This document shows, piece by piece, positions 19,524-51,195 of a DNA stretch of 64,000 nt. A model generated the notes under the pieces. It was given only the letters and a program-made list of their open reading frames with translations, did no database searches and was not told the origin of the DNA. How positions within the stretch are numbered: the first letter of the stretch is position 1; the number at the start of each line of letters is the position of its first letter. This DNA is from Candidatus Saccharimonadota bacterium (GTDB lineage: Bacteria; Patescibacteriota; Saccharimonadia; Saccharimonadales; Saccharimonadaceae), in the NCBI GenBank assembly GCA_009992235.1, contig JAACVZ010000001.1:135465-199464 (forward strand). Reading direction: 5' to 3'. A program made the position numbers and the translations under genes.

Positions 19524-19555
19524 AAATTAAATAAGCCCTGACATGTGCCAGGGCT
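19524..19555 (-). terminator. intrinsic terminator of the sortase operon
   Basis: On the minus strand AGCCCTG/CAGGGCT (19549-19555 with 19534-19540) is followed by the U-rich TATTTAATTT. It lies 79 bases beyond the sortase stop. Confidence 0.85.
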
Positions 19556-19633
19556 CTTCCCGTTCTTTGGGGACCTATGTTTCAAGGAATTCTTCTGCCA
19601 GAGAGGCAGCGCACGAGGCAACCTGGTTGGTCG

Positions 19634-20407
19634 CTACTCGCGCGCCGCCATCTCCGCAGTCGTATCGAGATCAATCTCGAGGACGACAACAACAACGTTC
19701 CTTGCAGAAACGCGCTGTGCGTCGTCCTCGGCAGTTCGGTCGCACCCGACAAGTATCAATCTGCCGGGGACCTTCTCTACGACGGTTTCGTGGTCAGCAA
19801 AGCCAACCACCCCGTCAGAACTGACCTTTTGGACACTGAACTGCTCTACCACAGAGTAGTAGATAGTTCCATTCTCGGTCGTTACGAGCGCTAAATCGCC
19901 GTTGGCGAGATCGCCAAGGTTATTGAACACTGCGTCAACCCAAGAAGAATGTCCGTGTAGGTACACCGTGTTCTGTGAATCAGTACCCGGCGCACCCGTA
20001 GGGCTAATGGTGGCATCCCAGGAAACGATGTCGCGAGTTGAGGGATTGTACCCACCTCTCTCGGCACGCATCTCTGGGGTGTAGACCTCAATTTCGGCGT
20101 TGACTCCAATTTTGGGAACTCCAACACGCAGGGGTGTCGAAGCTGGAATCACTACCTGAGGCGCCTCTTCTTGCGGAGAAGGTGCCTCAGAAGTCTCAGT
20201 CGGTACCTCTGGGGGCGGTGGCCCGACAGCTGGATGCTGCCGAGCCACCACCTTGGGTGCTTCTGTGTCCTGGGCTACGAGCACGTCATAGACGTACGCC
20301 GCAGTGATTCCCAGCGACCCAAAAACGAGAACAATCCAGAGGTAAGCCGAGGGCCTAGCCTTCTGAGCGGCGACGGGTCGCGAAAAGCGCACCACCACCA
20401 ACACCAA
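19634..20407 (-). CDS. sortase (class E/F-like transpeptidase)
   Basis: Membrane-anchored cysteine transpeptidase. Of 257 aa, a membrane helix spans about 21-43, a Pro/Glu-rich linker to about 90, and the sortase domain carries YLHGHSS (His151/153), LILVGCDR (Cys222) and RNVVVVV (Arg236), the catalytic triad order H-C-R. The site VGCDR departs from the usual TLxTC. The gene overlaps the 3' end of the surface protein gene by 53 bases and has no clear ribosome site, so coupled translation is likely and a GTG slightly downstream is possible. Base composition is G+C-rich like the upstream gene, pointing to shared foreign origin. Confidence 0.88.
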   Translation of the reverse strand: MVLVVVRFSRPVAAQKARPSAYLWIVLVFGSLGITAAYVYDVLVAQDTEAPKVVARQHPAVGPPPPEVPTETSEAPSPQEEAPQVVIPASTPLRVGVPKIGVNAEIEVYTPEMRAERGGYNPSTRDIVSWDATISPTGAPGTDSQNTVYLHGHSSWVDAVFNNLGDLANGDLALVTTENGTIYYSVVEQFSVQKVSSDGVVGFADHETVVEKVPGRLILVGCDRTAEDDAQRVSARNVVVVVLEIDLDTTAEMAARE

Positions 20408-22406
20408 CCGCTGCCGCTACCAAACCGGCCATCGCCCATAGCCCCCAAGGAGCGCCAGGGTTCTGTTCGGCTGGGAGCCAGTCGTTCTTTGGCGTCCCGA
20501 CATCGTTGCCGTCATCGGGGCAGGCAAAAATCTCCTGCTCGGTGAGATCGCGCTCCCGAGACTCCTCGGTCTTGTTCACGGTGTCCACCACGTAGCCTGG
20601 GGTGTCTTCATCCCAGACGTAGGTCGTGGTGGTCTTGGTGCGGGTCTGAGTCGTGGTCGTGTCATCACACGCCCACTTCTCGTCAACCCACGTTGTGTAC
20701 TCGACCTTCGGGTCCTCGACCGGGCAAAGTTCACCCGAGTCCTTCTTGGTCCATTGGGTCTTCGCGCCATCCGGGAAAACATACCCGTCCTTCGCGTAGA
20801 CCTTGATGGTCTGGGAGCCGTTCTTGTTCTCGGTCACCTCGTAGTAGTACTCGTCGGTGTCGGTGTACTCCCAGTTGCCGTTGTCGAGACCGCACGGGTC
20901 CACCCAGGTGGGCTTCGCAGGAGTGGTTTCAACCAGCACCGGAGTTCCGAAGGTGTACTCCGTGCATCCGATGGTGATCTGGTTGATTGCACCGCTCGCG
21001 TGAACGCCGGAACCCACCGAGTAACCAATAGCCTTCACCCGAGCATCGGGGAAGGCGCCTAGCCACTCGTTTGCAGTTCCGTACCAGGAAGAGCCGTAGC
21101 CCCCACCGGTGTTCGGTGAGCCATCCTTGACGAACTGCGCCGATGAGTTTGCTGCCCACCAGCTGTTGCCGTAGACGGCTTCTCCGACCAGAATGCTGTC
21201 GGGTGTGCCGTTGTTGTCGAAGTCGACTACAAGCTGAAGCCCTGGCGCAATGCCAAAGTCTGCCGTGTAGTCGAGCATCTGGGCAATGGTTTCAGTACCG
21301 AGGTTCTTCAACGGGAAGTCGGTCGCGTAGTAGCCGGCCGCCTTGTCCGTTGATGTTGCTCCCTCGGTCCAGACCTTAAGCGCGCCCTCGACGAGCTCGT
21401 TGTGTCCCGTGGCGCGGGTCTCAGACAGGTCCCATGTTGCGAGATCTGTCGTGTGAACCGAGCTGTAGGTCGGGCACTGCTCGACGACGGGCGGCGGCGG
21501 TGCGCAGTCCGTGTTGACTGTGAAGGTCTGGCCGTTGTTGTCCCAAAGATTCGGGATATCGGTTCCTCGGACGTAATCCGACTCACCGCCAACCATCCAT
21601 ACCGTGATCTGAACTGAACCTCCGCCTTCATCCTCATCGAAGGTTGCAGGGAAATCCAGCCCAGGGTAGACCGTGTCTTGGTCTGCCCCAACTGCATACT
21701 GGAACCCGTAGGAAATCCCTACGGGCGACTGCGTGATTGACATGTCGAACGCACCGCATTGCTGCACCGGCTCGTAGTTGAAGCAGGTGGCAGGGTCAAT
21801 GCCGTTGTTCTCTAGCCAAGCAGCAACAGAAACGCCACCAGGCTTCTCGCTGACATCGCAGTAGTTCACTGGCGGTGGCGGCGGGGTAACACAGTTGTCA
21901 CCCTCCCTGATCATGCCGTCAGGCACGGTCTCTTGAGAACCGTCGATATTGGCGCAAACGTCCACTGGCGGCGTTGTGCCTTTACAGACGATCAGATGAG
22001 AAACGTCGTACTTTTTGCCCTGGGCGTTCTCGCCGGGGGTTGAGTACGTCGTTCCCGCCGAGGGGTGCTCGTAAACAGCGTCCCCATTGGGGCCACCATT
22101 CACAATGAGTACCTCCCAGTGGTCACCAGGCCAGCTGGCCTGATAGGCGTTCAGCTGAACGCCCGACCACTTGCCGTCACCGTCTTGGACGATGCCGCCG
22201 TGAGCGTTCGGAGACGTCGAGTCCCCGTACTTGTAGCACACCGCGTCGTGTGCGGCGTACTGGTTCTCCCAGTAGCCGGTGTTGTTCGGGTTGTCGCTGC
22301 CGCCGCTGCCGTAGGCCGGAGCTGAAGCAAAAAATGCTCCAGCACCTGCACTTATTAGCAGGGCTGCAAGCGCCGCTGTTACTCGTGATCGGATGGTCCC
22401 CATCAT
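20355..22406 (-). CDS. large secreted cell-wall-type surface protein, likely sortase substrate
   Basis: The 683-aa protein has a signal peptide (TAALAALLISAGAGAFFASA, then PAYG), cysteine-containing beta-rich segments separated by PPPPP linkers, and a region near residues 575-620 with WVDEKWACDDTTTTQTRTKT, a Thr/Arg pattern I associate with Microbacteriaceae-type surface proteins. The C terminus has the layout of a sorting signal: NDWLPAEQNPGAP, a hydrophobic helix (WAMAGLVAAAVGVGGGALFA) and RRR. The motif LPAEQ is not the canonical LPxTG. The sortase gene follows directly. Codons are G+C-rich at third positions, unlike the surrounding genes. Start 22406 has GAAGGTGATG upstream; 22403 is an alternative. 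Confidence 0.87.
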   Translation of the reverse strand: MMGTIRSRVTAALAALLISAGAGAFFASAPAYGSGGSDNPNNTGYWENQYAAHDAVCYKYGDSTSPNAHGGIVQDGDGKWSGVQLNAYQASWPGDHWEVLIVNGGPNGDAVYEHPSAGTTYSTPGENAQGKKYDVSHLIVCKGTTPPVDVCANIDGSQETVPDGMIREGDNCVTPPPPPVNYCDVSEKPGGVSVAAWLENNGIDPATCFNYEPVQQCGAFDMSITQSPVGISYGFQYAVGADQDTVYPGLDFPATFDEDEGGGSVQITVWMVGGESDYVRGTDIPNLWDNNGQTFTVNTDCAPPPPVVEQCPTYSSVHTTDLATWDLSETRATGHNELVEGALKVWTEGATSTDKAAGYYATDFPLKNLGTETIAQMLDYTADFGIAPGLQLVVDFDNNGTPDSILVGEAVYGNSWWAANSSAQFVKDGSPNTGGGYGSSWYGTANEWLGAFPDARVKAIGYSVGSGVHASGAINQITIGCTEYTFGTPVLVETTPAKPTWVDPCGLDNGNWEYTDTDEYYYEVTENKNGSQTIKVYAKDGYVFPDGAKTQWTKKDSGELCPVEDPKVEYTTWVDEKWACDDTTTTQTRTKTTTTYVWDEDTPGYVVDTVNKTEESRERDLTEQEIFACPDDGNDVGTPKNDWLPAEQNPGAPWGLWAMAGLVAAAVGVGGGALFATRRRSEG

Positions 22407-22448
22407 GGGATCATCACCTTCTCTCTGTTTCGGTCCGATAGCAGGGTG

Positions 22449-22601
22449 CTATACGGAGATTGAACTGGTGTGGTAGATGGCGAAAACCAAGAATAACACA
22501 ACAAGCATGTCGCTACCATGTCTCTTGGCTTTTCGCACGAACTTACGGCCGAACCGTCCCAGCTTACGGCGAAGCCGCAAACGAGGGGTAGATGCTGTCA
22601 T
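22449..22601 (-). CDS. small basic single-span membrane peptide (50 aa) upstream of the surface protein
   Basis: ATG 22601 is preceded by AAGGAGG (about 22608-22615, minus strand) at 7-base spacing. The 50 codons encode an arginine/lysine-rich N-terminal half (LRLRRKLGRFGRKFVRKAKR) and then a hydrophobic helix (MLVVLFLVFAIYH). It is 42 bases upstream of the surface protein gene, on the same strand and with the same G+C-rich coding. It belongs to the same acquired block by position. No family recognised; a membrane-active peptide or a small accessory subunit are both possible. Confidence 0.7.
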   Translation of the reverse strand: MTASTPRLRLRRKLGRFGRKFVRKAKRHGSDMLVVLFLVFAIYHTSSISV

Positions 22602-47447: not shown

Positions 47448-47514
47448 AAAAATCTCCTTGGTTTTTAATATGTTCGGACGAGTTGTTAATGATCGACATT
47501 TTGGCTAGCGGGAA

Positions 47515-47550
47515 CAAAAAAGTCTTTGGACCTCGCACCGCCAAAGACTT
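47515..47550 (-). terminator. attenuator in the rplJ leader
   Basis: Perfect 10-bp stem (47541-47550 with 47520-47529), loop of 11, followed on the minus strand by a U-run. It lies 67 bases upstream of rplJ and downstream of the L10 leader fold, so it is in position for transcription attenuation. Confidence 0.85.
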
Positions 47551-47645
47551 TCGAAACGTCAACTATAAGTTATCATTTCCTCGGTAGCGGATTAAGTATT
47601 GCCCGGAAGCGTTACGGCTACTGTCTTCGGTATGTCTGAAAGCAT
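47551..47645 (-). promoter_or_regulatory. ribosomal protein L10 leader
   Basis: The minus-strand sequence contains GAAGACAGTAGCCGTAAC and, after a CTTCCGGGC segment, CTTAATCCGCTACCGAGG. This matches the conserved arms of the L10 leader (GUAGACAGCAGG ... UUAAG-CCUGCCGAGG pattern), the L10(L12)4 binding site with its kink-turn. GTAGC/GCTAC forms the stem. It is followed at once by a terminator hairpin. Confidence 0.75.
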
Positions 47646-47731
47646 TCTATCAGATTTACTCCACTTGTGCAACCTATAACAGATTGACTAAACGCAAAAA
47701 CTACGGTAAAATATATATTTGGAATATTATT

Positions 47732-50199: not shown

Positions 50200-51114
50200 T
50201 TACACCGCGATTGGCGCCTTGATACCCGGGTGGGGGTTGTAATCGATCACCTCGAGGTCCTCAAACGTGTAGCTGAAGATGTCTTCTGGCTTCCGCTTGA
50301 TGACTAGTTGAGGAAGGGCGCGTGGCTCGCGCGAGAGCTGCAGCTCCACCTGTTCGAAGTGGTTGCTGTAGATGTGCGTGTCGCCACCGGTCCAGATGAA
50401 CTCGCCAACCTCCAGATCGCACTGTTGCGCCATCATGTGAGTGAGTAGAGCGTAGCTTACGATGTTGAAGGGCACGCCCAAAAACATGTCGCAGCTCCGT
50501 TGGTACAGCTGGCAAGACAGCTTGCCGTCGACGACGTAGAACTGGAATAGTGCGTGGCACGGTTCCAGCGCCATGAGCGGCAAGTCAGCCGGGTTCCAGG
50601 CGGAGACGATGATTCGCCTCGAATCGGGGTTGGCCTTCAACAGTTGTACGGCCTTTTCGACTTGATCGAGAATGCCGCCGTCCCGGGTTGGCCAGGAGCG
50701 CCACTGAACGCCATAGACGGGACCGAGGTCGCCGTAACTACGAGCGAACTCGTCATCTTCCAGCACTTGCTGCTCGTACACCTCCATCTGTTCGGTCCAC
50801 TCTGGTGAATTGGTTTCTGGAACGGGTTGACCTGTCTTTAGCAGGTAGTTGCGGAACGGCCACTCTGACCAAATGTGGACGTTCTTATCCAGCAGCGGTC
50901 GAATGCTGCCGCTGCCTGTGAGGAACCACAGGAGTTCTTCCGCGACGAGGCGAAAAGGTACCTTCTTGCTGGTGATGAGCGGGAAGCCTTCGGCCAGGTC
51001 GTACCTGATCTGACGACCGAACACGCTCTTCGTTCCCGTGCCTGTCCGATCGCCCTTCATGGCTCCGTTAGTGTAGACATCACGAAGAAGATCTTCGTAC
51101 GCCGTTGCTGACAT
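50200..51114 (-). CDS. thyA: thymidylate synthase (folate-dependent)
   Basis: Methylates dUMP to dTMP with methylene-tetrahydrofolate. The 304 aa carry [39 protein letters not shown], the catalytic [30 protein letters not shown] and [16 protein letters not shown] 51114 has GGGAGA at good spacing; the in-frame start at 51132 is less likely. The gene is visibly richer in G+C than its neighbours, suggesting transfer. A long terminator-like hairpin follows. Confidence 0.96.
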
Positions 51115-51195
51115 ATTTTCTCCCAAGAACAAGGGCCCGTCCTTTTGACGCGCCCACCGCTATATACTATAGGACGGTATCGAATTTATGTCCAT

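Follow-up and report, generated by a model that had tools for sequence, protein, structure and literature searches.

Sortases are already known in CPR bacteria (PMC6744442), while the means by which ultrasmall episymbionts recognize and bind their hosts are, according to part of one published account, largely unknown (PMC12206443). The sortase described below scores best, among curated classes, against class F (model NF033748), and the surface protein encoded with it shares a domain with secreted proteins of Microbacteriaceae and Microbacterium phages. No description of such pairs or of such domain sharing was found in the literature searched, a search that had most subscription journals outside its reach. 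A mosaic protein that is predicted to be sortase-anchored and shares domains with the likely host family and its phages is a concrete candidate for host recognition, and would tie gene exchange to host choice in a way that can be tested.

Organization of the locus

The window, by which we mean the whole stretch of 64,000 nucleotides that was analysed, belongs to a saccharibacterial genome of 691 kb that is 96.7% complete. Three ORFs, encoding a 50-aa membrane peptide, a 683-aa secreted protein and a sortase, occupy positions 19634-22601 on the minus strand, as proposed in the first-pass annotation, and the LPAEQ and GCDR strings singled out there are also present. The features are as follows:

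22449..22601, minus strand: peptide of 50 aa, basic, single-pass membrane, with a strong AAGGAGG ribosome-binding site at 22616-22610
20355..22406, minus strand: mosaic surface protein of 683 aa with a signal peptide, several ectodomains and a putative C-terminal anchoring tail (domain comparison)
22308..22406, minus strand: signal peptide, residues ~1-33 (read from sequence)
21957..22292, minus strand: D1, residues 39-150, with a relative in the same-genus genome G548 (49-55%)
21483..21866, minus strand: D2, residues 181-308, with relatives in CPR genomes G084 and G044 (37-38%)
20907..21455, minus strand: D3, residues ~318-500, common to Microbacteriaceae, Microbacterium phages, viral contigs and other CPR, with a predicted beta-rich fold
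20721..20918, minus strand: D4, residues 497-562, repeat-like, also in Microbacteriaceae and CPR
20511..20729, minus strand: D5, residues 560-632, with relatives in CPR genomes G155 (54%) and G127 (47%)
20355..20480, minus strand: sorting-signal-like C-terminal tail, WLPAEQNPGAPWGLW-hydrophobic-RRRSEG (read from sequence; tails of the group compared)
19634..20407, minus strand: divergent sortase of 257 aa (PF04203 match, tree, alignment)
19949..19951, minus strand: codon of the conserved sortase histidine, His153 (invariant in alignments)
19742..19744, minus strand: codon of the conserved sortase cysteine, Cys222, within VGCDR (invariant in alignments)
19533..19556 (19556-19533), minus strand: terminator-like stem-loop just 3' of the sortase gene (stem-loop search)

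The surface gene overlaps the start of the sortase gene by 53 nt. The stem-loop that follows the sortase is weak evidence of a terminator when taken alone, because the region holds five such structures against 3.1 expected. The ribosome-binding site of the peptide gene suggests that the peptide may be translated; nevertheless, the idea of a three-gene unit did not survive, as no relative of the peptide was detected in related loci or phages, and the peptide lies outside the conserved block. A search for flanking direct repeats as marks of insertion yielded only short, chance-like pairs, and no phage genes were recognised beside the block. No empty site could be read by way of the neighbouring ABC transporter, because its flanks are not syntenic in the same-genus genomes that have the transporter. 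A homologue of this transporter in one same-genus genome (G547, L140-L141) is interrupted by an in-frame stop. A ribosomal protein L10 leader is present at 47507-47648 on the minus strand.

The sortase and its affinities

The sortase matches Pfam PF04203 with an E-value of 2.4e-9 (37.4 bits; gathering cut-off 26.6), and scores 36.1 bits with NF033748, short of the cut-off of 166; four other scanned sortases of its subgroup similarly fall far under this cut-off or show no match. The catalytic His and Cys are invariant in 25 aligned sortases. The canonical catalytic Arg position is occupied by Asn, as in class-F-like Microbacteriaceae sortases, and there is an Arg at Cys+2 and another beside this Asn. 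The special status first accorded to GCDR is lost, because a Cys-x-Arg constellation is common to most of the subgroup. With Asn at the canonical Arg position and no LPxTG in the partner protein, catalysis and the cleavage site stand as predictions. The AlphaFold model of the sortase alone (pLDDT 37.5) was too poor for use.

Our genome searches drew on samples of the respective groups. The best relative among 247 genomes of the CPR order shows 31% identity (E 6e-17), and the best matches among 300 Microbacteriaceae genomes show 42% (E 2e-33) and 41% (E 3e-33). A class-wide scan of 395 Actinomycetia recovered no further strong match, and no relative was found in phages. A tree of 47 sortases places the window sortase in a 17-row clade (99/97) with eight actinobacterial and eight CPR rows, to the exclusion of the other three sortases of its own genome, and support within this clade is weak. 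The AU test on a reduced set rejects neither a clade restricted to the CPR genus (p 0.13) nor a grouping of the window sortase with the Microbacteriaceae rows (p 0.10-0.15). On sequence criteria, the protein is best regarded as a member of a divergent, unnamed group common to this CPR genus and Microbacteriaceae.

In most members of this clade the sortase gene overlaps, or follows without a gap, an upstream gene whose secreted product ends in a hydrophobic, basic tail, which bears out the earlier suggestion of a dedicated sortase-substrate pair. Other genes lie upstream in three exceptions (G440, G348 and G486); for G153 and some weaker matches, the DNA examined shows no gene of a tailed protein alongside. 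The substrate tails have no common cleavage motif, with HTG, QTG or NTG in some and none in others, so that LPAEQ, originally raised as a possible cleavage site, is only a candidate. By eye, a recurring feature of these tails is an aromatic residue (PW, GW or GF) close to where the hydrophobic stretch begins.

Within the same genus, such pairs are found beside ychF in G147 and G155, and one common pair occupies another site in three sister species (G131, G035 and G182). The GC3 of these same-genus pairs is 0.64-0.91, against 0.42-0.54 in their flanks. The sortases of the three sister species are 82-87% identical between species, in step with their neighbours at 80-95%; their surface proteins match only in some segments, with a conserved C-terminal end. 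At loci L111, L112 and L113 of sister genomes, the conserved sortase adjoins a surface protein whose tail is conserved and whose middle is reshuffled. This pattern, seen in three genomes, would reflect an exchange of domains while sortase and anchor stay constant. Outside this genus but within its family, sortases are also found next to tlyA. Surface proteins encoded near other sortases of the window's own genome (L122, 2302-4449; L123, 1744-3258) have PNTG-type tails unlike that of the window protein.

The mosaic surface protein and the distribution of D3

Neither the surface protein nor the peptide has a convincing match in the libraries scanned. A signal peptide, a hydrophobic C-terminal stretch and a basic end can all be read from the surface protein, the tail of which has LPAEQ in place of an LPxTG-like motif. 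Domain comparison indicates that the protein is a mosaic, with its several ectodomains each having its own set of relatives. It was not found in plasmids, and a screen of viral contigs with single-protein patterns confirmed no close relatives.

The most widely shared part is D3, a domain of about 180 aa that is 47-54% identical to proteins of the Microbacterium phages Gina, Teamocil, Megan and Nicole72 and up to 55-57% identical to those of Microbacteriaceae. Its nearest relative, at 66% identity, is in the CPR genome G100. Hence, the affinity to Microbacteriaceae that had been claimed for the block holds for the sortase (41-42%) and for D3 (~55%), with the qualification that the closest D3 is from CPR. 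The GC3 of D3 is 0.36 in G100 as against 0.71 in the window, and ranges from 0.81 to 0.99 in actinobacteria and phages. In the D3 tree the CPR copies fall at four places and the phage copies at one, as a clade of their own (100/98). The placement asked for by the first-pass annotation thus has a mixed outcome, with both sortase and D3 in clades that combine actinobacteria and CPR with weak inner support. D3 occurs more often and in greater variety in Microbacteriaceae than in the CPR order; plasmids yielded no D3.

Six further viral contigs carry D3, four of them with a sortase-like tail at the end. Across phage and viral-contig loci (L005, L006, L007 and L211-L216) the D3 proteins are secreted and most tails are sortase-like (LAQTG, LAATG, LPVTG, LAYTG), and to judge from these signals the proteins are apparently anchored on the infected cell. 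Several D3 proteins of Microbacteriaceae end in a LADTG-like tail or carry CWB2 wall-binding domains, and in none of the actinobacterial D3 proteins examined is the gene followed by a sortase gene.

The AlphaFold model of D3 is beta-rich (pLDDT 74, pTM 0.75). Its matches in the PDB, mostly to carbohydrate-binding or lectin-like (CBM-like) folds, are weak (best E 0.018, TM ~0.3-0.4), which makes carbohydrate binding a guess. Among viral models the Megan phage protein is the sole strong match, and sequence searches for solved structures of D3 returned nothing convincing.

Base composition

As a baseline we used 268 other large ORFs of the same genome, comprising most of contig C3 and parts of C6, which have a mean GC of 0.481 (sd 0.029, maximum 0.570) and a mean GC3 of 0.470. 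The surface gene, with a GC of 0.599 and a GC3 of 0.713 (z 4.3), has the highest G+C among the 270 large ORFs sampled, and the sortase gene (GC 0.570, GC3 0.593, z 2.2) is in the top 3.4% of sampled ORFs for GC3. These two genes are foreign-looking in composition and differ from the genome average, as had been noted from the letters alone; the peptide gene, which had been included in that statement, is only mildly G+C-richer (GC 0.51, GC3 0.59).

The thymidylate synthase gene at 50200-51132 on the minus strand (GC 0.57, GC3 0.72) has the top GC3 among the other sampled ORFs. More than 3,900 phage records match it, including Microbacterium and Gordonia phages at ~54-55%, and it has possibly been acquired as well.

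Origin and function of the cassette

We favour, with a probability of roughly 60%, the interpretation that the surface and sortase genes form a two-gene surface-display cassette with ectodomains from a pool found in Saccharibacteria, Microbacteriaceae and phages, and that it probably serves host contact. The surface protein would be exported by means of its signal peptide and held in the membrane by its hydrophobic, basic C-terminal tail, whereupon the dedicated sortase encoded by the overlapping gene would cleave it near the tail and join the product to the cell envelope. The ectodomains would be interchangeable modules from the pool common to Microbacteriaceae, their phages and other CPR, and the cell would thereby show host-like or phage-like domains outward, most likely in order to recognize actinobacterial surfaces or attach to them. 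The adhesive role is suggested by the company D3 keeps and its weak lectin- or CBM-like fold resemblance. We infer that transfer ran mostly from actinobacteria to CPR, and the overall picture suggests repeated exchange of surface parts between presumed parasite, host and virus.

The first-pass annotation had raised possible uptake of the block from a host; in the strict form of this idea, the whole block would have come over from Microbacteriaceae recently and in one step. The shift of G+C and codon usage towards actinobacteria, the best sortase matches in Microbacteriaceae and the 55-57% identity of D3 to proteins of that family are all in keeping with such an event. Yet the actinobacterial sortases found reach only ~42% identity, the domains match different sources, and actinobacterial and phage copies of D3 have a GC3 above the 0.71 seen here. 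Moreover, the actinobacterial genomes sampled yielded no block that combines this substrate with this sortase; the D3 genes examined there have no sortase gene after them, and the nearest sortases are paired with unrelated substrates. Together with the G+C-rich pairs elsewhere in the genus, one of them in three sister species, the survival of a CPR-only clade in the AU test and the CPR affinity of the nearest D3, these observations make simple uptake from the host distinctly unlikely. One alternative is an old CPR cassette inherited in the lineage, with its high G+C due to selection or to biased exchange with related CPR, and its actinobacterial matches due to ancient sharing or to transfer from CPR to actinobacteria. 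The persistence of same-genus pairs with high GC3 in G+C-poorer flanks, the sortases beside tlyA in other genera, the p of 0.13 and the D3 of G100 argue for this origin, which we nonetheless consider doubtful in view of the actinobacterial best pairwise matches of the sortase, the greater abundance and diversity of D3 in Microbacteriaceae and the scattering of CPR copies over four places in the D3 tree.

D3 could also have arrived through phages that meet both partners, in which case the protein would act at the phage-cell interface, as a decoy or in exclusion, instead of in host binding. D3 does occur with a signal peptide and a sortase-like tail in Microbacterium phages and viral contigs, and one report describes phages against which Saccharibacteria and Actinobacteria both carry spacers (PMC10746230). 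However, we judge this very unlikely, given that the phage copies form their own clade and are not the nearest relatives of the window D3, that phages yielded no relative of the sortase, and that the block has no recognised phage genes beside it. Returning to the display cassette with shared ectodomains, a stronger and more speculative version, to which we give limited credence, would have this genus of Saccharibacteria hold sortase and anchoring tail constant while swapping in ectodomains from host Microbacteriaceae and their phages, with the cassette setting the permissible host.

Comparison with known systems

The window sortase resembles class F sortases (NF033748) in its conserved His and Cys, and its Asn at the Arg position recurs in the Microbacteriaceae sortase L061, which passes the class F cut-off; it differs in lying far under that cut-off, in its separate clade and in its dedicated overlapping substrate gene. 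The D3 proteins of Microbacteriaceae and of Microbacterium phages (Gina gp86, Megan gp43, Nicole72 gp44) are, like the window protein, secreted and putatively surface-anchored, with a D3 of ~180 aa (about 47-56%), but have LAQTG- or LADTG-like tails or CWB2 instead and no sortase gene after them. The overlapping pairs of Microbacteriaceae (G388, G487 and G250) and of same-genus CPR (G147, G155, G131, G035 and G182) have substrates unrelated to the window ectodomains and other tail motifs, while sharing with the window pair the sortase subgroup, the gene order, the overlap or abutment and a tailed substrate.
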